Of a stretch of DNA of 64,000 nucleotides, positions 52,499-57,818 are shown in pieces. The stretch comes from Halorubrum saccharovorum DSM 1137 (GTDB taxonomy: Archaea; Halobacteriota; Halobacteria; Halobacteriales; Haloferacaceae), in contig NZ_AOJE01000016.1 of the NCBI RefSeq assembly GCF_000337915.1, positions 1 to 64,000 of the forward strand, in the 5' to 3' direction. The position numbers were made by a program, and so were the translations under genes. Below the pieces are notes generated by a model. It saw only the letters and a list, made by a program, of their open reading frames with translations, made no database searches and was not told the DNA's origin. Numbering within the stretch: the first letter of the stretch is position 1; every line of letters begins with the position of its first letter.

Positions 52499-52676
52499 CT
52501 CGACACCGGTTCCGGAGTCGGCGGCGGATTCGGCGTCATCCCGGCGTTCGGCCACGATGGTGGGATTCCCCGAGCGGCGTGGATAGGTCTTGCGGCGGGA
52601 GGAAGTGAAAGGCCGAGGACGGACCGACCCCACCGCTTTCCGGGCGCTTATTGGGACGCCATGGCGATCCTCGCCT

Positions 52677-53573
52677 ATGCGCGTCATCGCTCACGGCGGC
52701 GCCGGGGGGATCCCGGACGAGCCGGCTCCCAGACAGGCGACGCTCGACGAGGCGACCCGCCGCGGCGTCGACGCCGACACGACCCTCGGCGCGGTCGAGG
52801 CGGCGCTCGGCGTCCTCGAATCCGACCCGCGCTTTAACGCCGGCGTCGGCGGCGCGGTCCAGTCCGACGGGGTCGTCCGCACCGACGCGGGCGTGATGAC
52901 TTCGGACCGCGAGATCGGCGCGGCCTGCTCGATGCCCGGCGTCGAGCGCGCGGCGAGCGTCGCCCGCGTCGTCCACTCGGAGACGCCCCACGTCTTCGTC
53001 TCCGGCGAACACGCGGTCGACCTCGCCGACGAGTTCGGGATCGAGACGGGCGTCGACCTGCTCACCGACGAGAACCGGGAGCGGTACGAGGAGGAGGACC
53101 CGCCGCGGGGCGGTCCCCGCGAGCACCTCGACTGGCTCGCGACGCGGTTCGGCTCGGGCGAGGATCAGGCGGGGGGAACGGGCGAGAAAGACACCGCCCC
53201 CGACCACGACACGGTCGGCGCGGTCGCGACCGACGGCGAGACGTTCGCGGCGGCGACCTCCACCGGCGGGCGGTCGTTCGCGCTCGCGGGGCGCGTCGGC
53301 GACGTGCCGCAGGTCGGGTCGGGCTTCTTCTGTACCCCGGCCGGCGGCGCGAGCGCGACGGGCGCCGGCGAGGACATCGCGCGCGTCACGCTCTCGCGGC
53401 GGGCGGTGGGGTATCTCGAAGACGGAATTGGGGCGCAGGAGGCGGCCGACAGGGCGATCGACGAGTTCGAGGCGATCACCGGGTCGGGCGCCGGCGTGAT
53501 CGTTCTCGGGGAGGAGGGCGCCGGGAGCGCGTTCAACACCGACGGGATGCAGACGAGCATCGCTTATAAGTAG
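52677..53573 (+). CDS. Isoaspartyl peptidase / L-asparaginase (Ntn hydrolase)
   Basis: A 298-residue precursor that self-cleaves before Thr179 in HDTVGAVATDG to expose the N-terminal nucleophile. The alpha chain starts with RVIAHGGAGGIPDEPAPRQA and has ESDPRFNAGVGGAVQSDG near 48-65. The beta chain holds TSTGG near 196 and FFCTPAGGASATGAGEDIAR near 225. It hydrolyses asparagine or beta-aspartyl dipeptides, cleaning damaged isoaspartyl residues. A TATA-like cgcttattgg at 52645-52654 lies about 28 bp upstream of ATG 52677. Confidence 0.92.
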   Translation: MRVIAHGGAGGIPDEPAPRQATLDEATRRGVDADTTLGAVEAALGVLESDPRFNAGVGGAVQSDGVVRTDAGVMTSDREIGAACSMPGVERAASVARVVHSETPHVFVSGEHAVDLADEFGIETGVDLLTDENRERYEEEDPPRGGPREHLDWLATRFGSGEDQAGGTGEKDTAPDHDTVGAVATDGETFAAATSTGGRSFALAGRVGDVPQVGSGFFCTPAGGASATGAGEDIARVTLSRRAVGYLEDGIGAQEAADRAIDEFEAITGSGAGVIVLGEEGAGSAFNTDGMQTSIAYK

Positions 53574-54095: not shown

Positions 54096-55106
54096 ATGGT
54101 CACGTTCCTCGCCGGCGGTACGGGGACGCCGAAGCTCCTCGACGGGGCGACCCGCGTGTGGGACCCCGCGGAGGTCGCGGTCGTCGCCAACACGGGCGAC
54201 GACGTCGAGCTCGGCGGCCACCTCGTCTGTCCCGACGTCGACACCGTGCTGTTCGCCGGCGGCGGCGTCCTCGACCGCGAGACGTGGTGGGGGATCGCGG
54301 ACGACACGACGGCGACTCACGAGGAGCTCCGCCGGCTCGCCGACGAGGTCGGGCTCGAAACGGGCCCCCGCTACCTCGACGACGAGGCGCAGACGGCGGG
54401 CCGCGAGATCGCCCGCTGGCGGCGCTTCTCGGGCGTCGGCGAGTTCATGGAGATCGGCGACCGCGACCGCGCGGTCCACGTCGCGCGCACGAGCCTGCTC
54501 GACGAGGGGAGGTCGCTCACCGAGGCGGTCCGGACCCTCGGGGACGCGTTCGACCTCGACGTCGACCTCCTCCCGATGTCCGACGACCCGGTCGCGACGC
54601 TGATCCACACCGAGGCGGGCGAGACGATCCACTTCCAAGAGTACTGGGTCGCGCGCCGGGGCGAGCCAGCGGTCGCGGACGTGGAGTTCCGGGGCGCGGA
54701 CGACGCAGAGCCGACGAATGCGGTCCTGGAGGCCCTCACCGATCCGGTCGTTATCGGCCCCTCGAACCCCGTGACGAGCGTCGGTCCGATGCTGGCGCTC
54801 CCGGGCGTCGAGGCCGCGCTGTCGGCGACCCCGGTGGTCGCCGTCTCCCCGTTCGTCGGCGAGGAGGTGTTCTCCGGGCCCGCCGCCGACCTGATGGCGG
54901 GCGTCGGTCGCGAGCCCTCGACCGCGGGCGTCGCCGACGCGTACCCGTTCGCGGACGCGTTCGTCCTCGACGACGCGGACGGCACCGACCTGCGCGACCG
55001 GCACCCCGACCTGCACGTCGAGCGCACCGACACCCGCATCGACGACGAAGACGACGCAGAGCGCGTCTCGCGTGCCTGTGAGCGCGCGCTGGGGGCGGTC
55101 TCGTGA
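54096..55106 (+). CDS. cofD: 2-phospho-L-lactate transferase
   Basis: A 336-residue enzyme of coenzyme F420 biosynthesis. It joins the lactyl- (or related) phospho group from LPPG to the deazaflavin Fo, giving F420-0. The nucleotide loop [15 protein letters not shown] is at about 3-17, [20 protein letters not shown] at about 28-47, and [20 protein letters not shown] near 230. The Fo-binding region is intact and full length. It heads a compact operon whose members overlap by 1-4 bases (GTGA with the DUS-like gene), which ties F420 or another cofactor to the three downstream genes. TATA-like atacaaatc about 27 bp upstream. Confidence 0.93.
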
Positions 55107-55945
55107 GCGACCCCGCGTCCGGCGGCGACCCGTTCCTCGCCGCGGCCAGCCTCAGCGGCGCGGCCGACGCCGACTGGGCGCGGGCCGCGGCCCCGCACGT
55201 CGACGCCGCGATCCTCGGGGGGATCGCGCTCGACCCGGCGAGCCGGTCCGCGGCGCGCGATCTCGTCGCCCGCGACCGCTCGGAGTTCCTCCCCGCGGAC
55301 CCGGTCGCGTGGATCGACCGCCAGCTCGGCCGGCTCGCCGACGCCCCCCTGCGCCCCGGCGTCAACGTCCGGAGCGCGACCCTCGCTCCGGTTCGCGAGG
55401 CGGCGGCGGTCTGCGCCGAGCGCGGCGCGGTCTGCGAGGTGAACGCGCACTGCCGACAGCCCGAACTGCGCGCGGTCGGGTGCGGCGAGTCGCTGCTCCG
55501 GGACGCCGACCGACTGGCCGCGTACGTGGCCGCGGCCGCCGAGACCGGCGCGGCGACGAGCGTGAAGGTCCGCGCCGAGGTCCCCGGCGTCGACCTCGTC
55601 GCCGTCGCGGACGCGGTCGCCGACGCGGGCGCCGACTGGCTCCACGTCGACGCGATGGACTCCGAAGGAGTCATCTCGGATCTGACCGCCGGGCGGGAGC
55701 GCGACGCGGGCGACGCCGGCGAGCCCCACCGCCCCCGCGACGACCTCACCGTGATCGCCAACAACGGCGTTCGCGGGCGGGAGACCGTCGCGGAGTACGC
55801 CGCGTACGGCGCCGACGCCGTGAGCGTCGGCCGGCCCAGCAAACTCCCGCCATCCCTCTCCCGGGTCGCCGACGCGGTGGCGGCGTGGCGGGAGGGAGAA
55901 CTGCTCGCGGGGGGCTCGGGGGTCGCACCGGAGGCGCCGCCGTGA
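55103..55945 (+). CDS. tRNA-dihydrouridine-synthase-like FMN protein
   Basis: A 280-residue FMN-binding TIM barrel of the DUS type. The segment [20 protein letters not shown] near 113-132 corresponds to the catalytic VNxGCP...G.G..L of DUS and keeps the cysteine (NAHC), but the following proline is Arg. [19 protein letters not shown] near 154-172 and [12 protein letters not shown] near 215 supply the FMN sites. The C-terminal tRNA-binding helical domain of normal DUS is shortened to about 40 residues. A redox step in a cofactor pathway is therefore as likely as tRNA modification. GTG 55103 start; GTGA overlap with cofD. Confidence 0.8.
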
Positions 55946-56892
55946 TGTCGAGCCCCGTCGACGACGCGACCCTCGCGCTGCTGCTGGAGGTGGCCGGAAC
56001 CCCCAAACCGGGCAACGTCGACCGACACCGGGACCTCGACGACCTCCGGTTCGAGGCGTTCCTCGGCGGGGCGGTGGGCGCCCGCGAGGGCCTCGAACCG
56101 GCCGTGGACGAGGAGACGGGGATCGGCCGCGCCTTCGAGCGCGGCGTCGCGGGGATGGCGTCGCGGGCCGGGACGAACACCCAGTTCGGCTGTCTGCTCC
56201 TGCTCGTCCCGCTGATGCGAGCGACGGTCGATCGCGCGGAGCCCGGCGGGGCGCCCTCCCCGGAAGCGGTCGATCGCGCGGTCCGAGCGACGACCGTCGA
56301 CGACGCCGTCGCGTTCTACCGCGCGTTCGAGCACGTCGACGTCGCGGTCGGAGACCCACCCGCGGACGCCGCCGATCTCGACGTGCGACGCGGAAGCGAC
56401 GCGGCTCCGGCGCTGCGCGAGCGAGGCGCGACCTTGCGGGACGTGATGGCGCTCTCCGCGGACCCGTCCGATCCCGACCGCGTCCCCGACCGCAACGCGC
56501 GGGAGTGGGTCGAGGGGTTCCCGCGGGCGTTCCGCGCGGCCGAGTGGATCCGGAGCGACGAGGGTCCCCTGACCGACCGCGCGGCCCGGGCGTTCCTCGG
56601 GCTGCTCGCGGCCGAACCCGACACCCTGGTCGCGGCGAACCGCGGCCCGGATGCGGCGCGCGCGGCCAGCGAGCGCGCGGCCGCGCTGCTCGGCGGGCCG
56701 GGCGAGACACCCGACGCGCTCGCCGGCGTCGACGGGATCGACGCGGCGGCGGTCCACGGCGCCGACCTCGACGCCGCGGAGGGGTTGGCGACCGCGTTCG
56801 TCGACGAGGGGATCAACCCCGGGACGACCGCCGACCTCACCTGCGCCGCGCTGTACGTCGTCCTCCGGCGGGGGGCGGAGGTGGCGCCGTGA
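55945..56892 (+). CDS. CitG-like triphosphoribosyl-dephospho-CoA synthase family protein
   Basis: A 315-residue helical protein of the CitG/MdcB family. The motif EVAGTPKPGNVDRHRDLDDL near 16-35 is the family phosphate/metal signature, MASRAGTNTQFGCLLLLVPL near 70 is a second conserved block, and EGINPGTTADLTCAALYVVL near 286 matches the family C-terminus. Bacterial CitG attaches a ribosyl group to dephospho-CoA. Archaea without citrate or malonate lyase have this paralogue, so another nucleotide acceptor is inferred. ATG 55945 overlaps the previous stop by one base, and its stop overlaps the next GTG. Confidence 0.83.
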   Translation: MSSPVDDATLALLLEVAGTPKPGNVDRHRDLDDLRFEAFLGGAVGAREGLEPAVDEETGIGRAFERGVAGMASRAGTNTQFGCLLLLVPLMRATVDRAEPGGAPSPEAVDRAVRATTVDDAVAFYRAFEHVDVAVGDPPADAADLDVRRGSDAAPALRERGATLRDVMALSADPSDPDRVPDRNAREWVEGFPRAFRAAEWIRSDEGPLTDRAARAFLGLLAAEPDTLVAANRGPDAARAASERAAALLGGPGETPDALAGVDGIDAAAVHGADLDAAEGLATAFVDEGINPGTTADLTCAALYVVLRRGAEVAP

Positions 56893-57530
56893 GCGGGACC
56901 GACCGCGACGGCTCCGACGCCGTCACGCCCCCCGGTTGGCCCGTCGCCCTCCGGGGCGTCACCGAGTCGGTCGTGACGACGCTCGGACCGAACGACCGCT
57001 GGAACGTCGCGGCGCTCGGGCTTCACGCGCCGGACGACCCGAGCGACCCCGTCACGGCGCGGACGTACGGTCGCACCCGGACGTGGCGGAACTTCGCGGA
57101 GCGCGGCGGCGGCGTCGTGCAGTTCGCGCCCGACCCGCGGACGTTCGTCGACGCCGCGCTGACGGTCCACGAGGTCGACGAGCCGGTGCTCCCGACCGCC
57201 GACGCGTGGGTCGAGGTGACGGTCGAGGAGATCGGACGCGAGACCGAGGGCGACACCACGGTCCGGACGTGGGCGCTCGACCCGGTCGAACAGGCGGTCG
57301 TGAGAGAGCGCGTTCCGACGATCAACCGCGGGTTCGGAGCGGTCGTCGACGCGACGGTGGCGGCCTCGCGGCTTGACGTACCGGAGTTCGACACGGCCGA
57401 GCTCCTCGATCGGCTGCGGTACTTCGCGGACGTGGTCGAGCGGTGCGGCGGACCGGCGGAGCGCGAGGCGTTCGCTAGAATCGACGAGGCGACCGGGTGG
57501 CGGGAGCGCGCGGACGGCGACGAGGAGTAG
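56889..57530 (+). CDS. DUF447 flavoprotein-like
   Basis: A 213-residue archaeal protein of the DUF447 family. The N-terminal half resembles a flavin-reductase-type split barrel (SVVTTLGPNDRWNVAALGLH near 24-43, TRTWRNFAERGGGVVQFAPD near 62-81). The C-terminal half is helical (VPTINRGFGAVVDATVAASR near 137-156). It may bind FMN. Homologues sit beside CitG-like genes in archaea and some methylotrophic bacteria, which hints at a shared cofactor pathway. GTG 56889 overlaps the CitG stop by four bases. Last gene of the operon. Confidence 0.82.
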   Translation: MSGTDRDGSDAVTPPGWPVALRGVTESVVTTLGPNDRWNVAALGLHAPDDPSDPVTARTYGRTRTWRNFAERGGGVVQFAPDPRTFVDAALTVHEVDEPVLPTADAWVEVTVEEIGRETEGDTTVRTWALDPVEQAVVRERVPTINRGFGAVVDATVAASRLDVPEFDTAELLDRLRYFADVVERCGGPAEREAFARIDEATGWRERADGDEE

Positions 57531-57623: not shown

Positions 57624-57818
57624 ATGGCTATCAAACCCAAGTACATCAAGCAGCTCGGGAAGGTCCTGCTTGAGCGGTACCCCGACTCGTTCAACACGGA
57701 CTTCGAGACGAACAAGGAGAGCGTCACCGCGCTGACGACCGTCGAGTCGAAGGGCGTCCGCAACCGGATCGCCGGCTACGTCACCCAGAAGAAGGCGCAG
57801 GCAGCCCAGAAGGCGTAA
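57624..57818 (+). CDS. rps17e: 30S ribosomal protein S17e
   Basis: A 64-residue archaeal/eukaryotic ribosomal protein of the small subunit. The start AIKPKYIKQLGKVLLERYPD and KGVRNRIAGYVTQKKAQ are diagnostic. Archaeal S17e is half the length of the eukaryotic protein, as seen here. ATG 57624 rather than the in-frame GTG nine bases upstream, supported by the TATA box. Confidence 0.95.
   Translation: MAIKPKYIKQLGKVLLERYPDSFNTDFETNKESVTALTTVESKGVRNRIAGYVTQKKAQAAQKA

Follow-up and report, generated by a model that had tools for sequence, protein, structure and literature searches.

The stretch of DNA analysed here is 64,000 nucleotides of contig NZ_AOJE01000016.1 from Halorubrum saccharovorum DSM 1137 (hereafter the window). 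It carries four overlapping open reading frames (ORFs) encoding CofD of coenzyme F420 biosynthesis, a protein resembling dihydrouridine synthases (DUS-like), a CitG-like protein, and a DUF447 protein. The analysis of this locus suggests that haloarchaea, which have been thought to rely on folate only, also make a methanopterin-like molecule, and that its use is probably methionine synthesis. The CitG-like protein, DUF447, and ribofuranosylaminobenzene 5′-phosphate (RFAP) synthase are likely to serve the biosynthesis of a methanopterin-type cofactor, an RFAP-derived methyl carrier supplying methionine synthase via the F420-dependent reductase Mer. Gene content, gene order, and co-loss are the observations from which I infer the cofactor, two chemical steps of its synthesis, and its role as a methyl carrier.

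Is the CitG-DUF447 arrangement common in the phylum? In an evenly drawn sample of 147 Halobacteriota genomes, DUF447 was found in 142 and CitG in 141. Both genes occur in 139 genomes, and in 126 of these (25/25 haloarchaea and 101/114 other Halobacteriota) CitG immediately precedes DUF447 in the same orientation. The CitG-like/DUF447 pairing is ancient, and the linkage is not due to chance. An initial annotation of the window had regarded scattering of the four genes in most haloarchaea as an argument against its proposal, and this neighbourhood survey revealed no such scattering. In 16 methanogen-type genomes, a relative of AfpA/dihydromethanopterin reductase follows DUF447. DmrX, the reductase characterised in Methanosarcina mazei, is MM1854 and would adjoin the DUF447 protein MM1853 (structure 2nr4). 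The methanogen cluster mmp9-CitG-DUF447-(DmrX-like) has the same order around CitG and DUF447 as the haloarchaeal locus and a DUS barrel of the same family, whereas the haloarchaeal DUS-like protein lacks the methanogenesis-marker-9 domain and is paired with cofD, and a DmrX-like gene was not found in haloarchaea.

The RFAP synthase gene lies away from the CitG-DUF447 locus in haloarchaeal genomes. The two are lost together. Of 194 Halobacteriales, 190 have a member of the RFAP synthase family and 190 have DUF447, and the high-quality genomes lacking the one are those lacking the other (G028, G074, and G129; hereafter the losers). CitG was not found in these three genomes either. If the absences were independent, a coincidence on these three genomes out of 184 would be a one-in-a-million event. 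G211 and G275 make up the remaining absentees; both are fragmented drafts (94% and 92% complete, respectively), and G211 also lacks Mch. Haloarchaeal RFAP synthases pass the broader model TIGR00144 (151-168 bits; cut-off, 113.5) and retain the RLHFG, GLGSGTQ, GRGGxSGxG, and QSSWGPxVY motifs with slight variations. In a phylogenetic tree rooted at the midpoint, they are sister to the methanogen enzymes (support 99/98). The tree and the motifs fit vertical retention with some change. A bacterial origin is unsupported, since the haloarchaeal and methanogen enzymes group as sisters. As separate observations, the usual haloarchaeal RFAP synthase is accompanied in one haloarchaeon by a second, methanogen-like copy (G331:C1:131130-131960; 287.8 bits), and the deep-branching haloarchaeon Halorutilus salinus (G025/L086) has RFAP synthase and DUF447, while a search of it for Mch gave no match.

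The same families are associated in bacteria. The 119 Planctomycetia genomes include 114 with DUF447 and 115 with RFAP synthase; of the five lacking DUF447, four are also without RFAP synthase, and the remaining one has just a 100-residue fragment of it. In 103 of the 114 genomes, the gene immediately downstream of DUF447 encodes RFAP synthase. In Rhodopirellula europaea, a pabA-like gene is followed by DUF447 and RFAP synthase, with overlaps of 4 bases. Furthermore, plasmid-borne tetrahydromethanopterin (H4MPT) islands were found in Aquabacterium and Phyllobacterium. They encode RFAP synthase, MtdB, Mch, a RimK ligase, a CitG-like protein, FolB, and an AfpA-type flavoprotein, together with a dihydropteroate-synthase-like protein, DUF447, methanofuran enzymes, Fae, and PabB. 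The gene orders mch-orf5-orf7-fae and afpA-orf21-orf22 have been described in methylotrophs (PMC3615186), and they match the island orders mch-RimK-CitG-fae and afpA-DUF6513-DUF447. By gene order, the CitG-like protein would be Orf7 and DUF447 would be Orf22. The haloarchaeal RFAP synthase, CitG-like protein, and DUF447 are of the same families as those of methylotroph H4MPT islands (also with mptG). In contrast, the haloarchaeal enzymes are dispersed, AfpA/DmrX was not found in haloarchaea, and F420 genes are the neighbours. The initial annotation had stated that CitG and DUF447 co-occur in archaeal and methylotroph one-carbon cofactor clusters and had proposed a cofactor pathway; the islands and the 126/139 adjacency bear out both points. 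A methanopterin-type product is favoured because CitG and DUF447 occur in bacterial H4MPT islands and DUF447 stands beside RFAP synthase in Planctomycetia. In Rhizobiales and Burkholderiales, large plasmids were also noticed to carry H4MPT/methanofuran islands that are complete or nearly so (L174, L175, and L176).

A link to methionine synthesis was found on a plasmid of Halobellus limi, which has in a row mer, DUF447, RFAP synthase, and two methionine synthase genes, with npdG and glycine cleavage genes nearby. The mer gene overlaps DUF447. Halobellus Mer passes the methylene-H4MPT reductase model NF002619 (447.8 bits; cut-off, 276) and is slightly under TIGR03555 (331.6 vs 348.7 bits). Since the first of the two MetE genes has matches to Meth_synt_1 (40.3 bits) as well as Meth_synt_2 (53.9 bits), a pterin-binding role for this subunit is uncertain. 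In the complete genome of the loser G074, Mer, RFAP synthase, CitG, and DUF447 were not found, nor was an ortholog of the first Halobellus MetE gene, which encodes one subunit of the split MetE. G074 retains cofD, DUS, npdG, one catalytic MetE, FolD, and Mch. It also encodes corrinoid proteins and a methyl-tetrahydrofolate:corrinoid methyltransferase-like protein (L266 and L269), and a corrinoid route would be a plausible alternative source of methyl groups in this species.

How might the three enzymes work together? H4MPT consists in part of an aminophenyl-ribitol chain derived from RFAP and an alpha-linked ribose phosphate, and beta-RFAP synthase is the committed enzyme of its synthesis. In the proposed scheme, RFAP synthase would couple 4-aminobenzoate with phosphoribosyl pyrophosphate. 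DUF447, a putative flavin mononucleotide (FMN) enzyme acting near this step, would perhaps open the ribofuranosyl ring to give the ribitol chain. A split-barrel FMN protein encoded beside RFAP synthase is apt for a reductive ring opening; this assignment is offered tentatively, at somewhat less than an even chance. CitG releases adenine from ATP in forming an alpha-riboside, and the CitG-like protein is therefore stereochemically apt to form the alpha-ribose bond. It would add the alpha-linked ribose with ATP as the ribosyl donor, like CitG acting on dephospho-coenzyme A; I rate this assignment as evenly balanced. The haloarchaeal product would be an RFAP-derived pterin bearing one-carbon units, possibly without the final tail. 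Since AfpA/DmrX was not found in haloarchaea, a dihydrofolate-type reductase could reduce this pterin. F420-dependent Mer would then reduce the methylene form to the methyl form, the split-MetE methionine synthase would take the methyl group from it, and folate would handle the remaining one-carbon reactions. The need of Mer for F420 would give a reason for F420 genes and CitG-DUF447 to share an operon. In evolutionary terms, the balance tips slightly towards most haloarchaea having kept an RFAP-derived, methanopterin-like pterin of methanogen-like ancestors beside folate, for use by Mer and the split MetE, with CitG-like and DUF447 catalysing methanopterin steps hitherto unassigned in every organism that has them.

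Several points weigh against the methanopterin-type cofactor. To my knowledge, no methanopterin has been reported from haloarchaea, and haloarchaea contain folate. The haloarchaeal RFAP synthases score below the strict equivalog model NF040726 (167-175 vs 328 bits), and a long stem lies under them in the tree. For an AfpA/DmrX-type reductase, the search of haloarchaea gave weak matches only (approximately 1e-6 to 1e-9), which is the level reached by CoaBC-type proteins. Two of the three losers share a genus, so the co-loss represents at most two independent events. Mch was tried as a further co-lost enzyme and rejected; all three losers retain it, and Mch itself is thus independent of the module. 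Lastly, the loss of Mer and the MetE subunit was examined in one loser, G074, and their presence in genomes keeping the module is known from one plasmid operon and from publications.

These points leave room for another explanation: RFAP synthase, CitG-like, and DUF447 act jointly but have drifted to some other ribosylated aromatic cofactor, while Mer and MetE use folate. The equivalog score, the long stem, and the persistence of Mch in the losers fit this explanation. So does a 2021 review of Haloferax annotation, in which the methanopterin-specific enzymes are described as absent, HVO_2628 is doubted as an RFAP synthase, and Mch and Mer are assigned to folate (PMC8305020). However, Mer and the MetE subunit are gone with the trio in G074 while the folate enzyme FolD is kept, the Halobellus operon joins Mer, DUF447, RFAP synthase, and methionine synthases, and the haloarchaeal RFAP synthases retain the family motifs. 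A drifted cofactor is rather unlikely, though it is the strongest competitor of the methanopterin-type cofactor. The present data agree with the review on Mch and point the opposite way on the rest. The predicted methyl donor of the split MetE is methyl-tetrahydrofolate or another methyl pterin (PMC7857596). Literature searches combining DUF447 and either Haloferax or methanopterin, CitG and methanopterin, or RFAP and haloarchaea yielded nothing.

If the methanopterin-type cofactor is real, the view in the literature, by which haloarchaea have lost methanopterin and use only folate, would be overturned. The retention of F420 and Mer by haloarchaea would be accounted for, and the likely methyl donor of the split MetE would be named. 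Two uncharacterised families, CitG-like and DUF447, would be placed in the unfinished H4MPT pathway, and both could be studied in Haloferax volcanii, which is genetically tractable, instead of in a strict anaerobe.

The four ORFs in the window are real, with the overlaps that had been described: 4 bases (GTGA) between cofD and the DUS-like gene, 1 base (TGATG) between the DUS-like and CitG-like genes, and 4 bases (GTGA) between the CitG-like gene and DUF447. The locus is nonetheless two modules, cofD-DUS and CitG-DUF447, and not the single functional unit first supposed, because the overlapping cofD-DUS pair persists in the three losers without CitG, DUF447, and RFAP synthase. The DUS-like gene was for this reason rejected as a member of the H4MPT module. 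It was also proposed initially that all four genes form one pathway to a modified F420 or another F420-linked nucleotide. The overlaps and the occurrence of the full cofD-DUS-CitG-DUF447 set in a non-haloarchaeal genome (G030) speak for such a pathway. It has become very improbable, as the two modules separate in the losers, CitG and DUF447 occur in bacterial H4MPT islands in which no F420 gene was seen, and DUF447 stands beside RFAP synthase in Planctomycetia. Equally improbable is ordinary operon packing, that is, unrelated genes under a common promoter with functionally meaningless overlaps. In its favour, compact GC-rich archaeal genomes often show short overlaps, and the next gene downstream is a ribosomal one. 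Against it, the CitG-DUF447 pair is conserved phylum-wide and is missing along with the distant RFAP synthase gene in the Halobacteriales losers, and its DUF447 member is tied to RFAP synthase in one bacterial class; packing is already contradicted for this pair.

The family assignments of the four proteins were assessed with profile models and predicted structures. CofD in the window satisfies its equivalog model TIGR01819 (374.6 bits; cut-off, 257.45). The CitG-like protein matches Pfam CitG (184.2 bits), and its confident predicted structure (mean predicted local distance difference test score, 91.6) has the fold of 3h9p from Archaeoglobus. Both this protein and the CitG-like ones encoded in the bacterial H4MPT islands carry the KxGN and NPGTxAD motifs. 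Unlike CitG and MdcB, the triphosphoribosyl-dephospho-coenzyme A synthases, the protein of the window is not encoded near citrate lyase or malonate decarboxylase, as had been remarked at the outset, and it falls far below the true CitG and MdcB equivalogs (14.1 and 15.2 bits; cut-offs, 272.3 and 282.35, respectively). DUF447 in the window has both Pfam domains (DUF447_N, 77.4 bits; DUF447_C, 62.7 bits). Its model, likewise confident (mean score, 92.3), matches the FMN-bound structures 2nr4 and 2ptf and the riboflavin-phosphate-bound structure 2iml, which come from Archaeoglobus, Methanosarcina (MM1853), and Methanobacterium. Thus, DUF447 is predicted to have an FMN-binding fold.

By its profile scores, the DUS-like protein appears to be a diverged relative of the MJ0144 family (TIGR00736, 127.1 bits, below the cut-off of 218.7; Pfam Dus, 25.3 bits), and it is far from the tRNA dihydrouridine synthase DusC equivalog (22.7 bits; cut-off, 395). 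It resembles tRNA dihydrouridine synthases in its barrel and VKxR motif but has NAHCR instead of their Cys motif. The initial annotation was right about the presence of NAHCR and mistaken in seeing an alteration of this gene, since NAHCRQ is invariant in every DUS-like version compared and is family-wide. Likewise, the C-terminus is indeed short, and what it lacks is the methanogenesis-marker-9 domain (TIGR03277) of the methanogen versions. This domain was found at the C-terminus of the DUS-like protein in the two methanogen-type loci scanned, and haloarchaeal DUS-like proteins are without it. The DUS-like gene precedes CitG in 22/24 haloarchaea and 57/76 other Halobacteriota. At the methanogen-type loci L047 and L056, the gene directly preceding CitG-DUF447 encodes the methanogenesis-marker-9 protein, a DUS-like barrel extended by a Cys-rich tail. 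This position may hint at the role of the marker-9 protein.

Table 1. Features at the cofD-DUS and CitG-DUF447 modules (positions in the window).
Feature	Position	Strand	Remark
cofD, 2-phospho-L-lactate transferase of F420 biosynthesis	54096-55106	+	Module 1; TIGR01819 score
DUS-like FMN-type barrel, MJ0144/methanogenesis-marker-9 family without the Cys-rich tail	55103-55945	+	Module 1
CitG-like, proposed ATP-dependent ribosyl transferase (methanopterin-type cofactor synthesis)	55945-56892	+	Module 2
DUF447, FMN split-barrel, proposed reductase (methanopterin-type cofactor synthesis)	56889-57530	+	Module 2
Small ORF, eS17-like ribosomal protein by sequence	57624-57818	+	Directly 3′ of DUF447; outside the module

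The cofD-DUS, CitG-DUF447, and S17e locus is also present in Natrinema thermotolerans (CP031304.1, 5309-10899; L173), where the S17e gene is likewise annotated right after DUF447. RFAP synthase and a MetE subunit are encoded elsewhere on this replicon, which is labelled a plasmid while its content looks chromosomal. In the window, an ORF resembling isoaspartyl peptidase/L-asparaginase type 2 (MRVIAHGGAGG...; 52590-53573, + strand), judged from its sequence, lies 5′ of cofD. A Mer candidate in the window (match at 343-759) was rejected as a different luciferase-type protein. The ORF at 1-1047 encodes an LLM-class luciferase-type oxidoreductase, which is probably F420-dependent and is not Mer. 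This ORF opens with a fourfold 24-base repeat in its first codons (TMLRRGDR).

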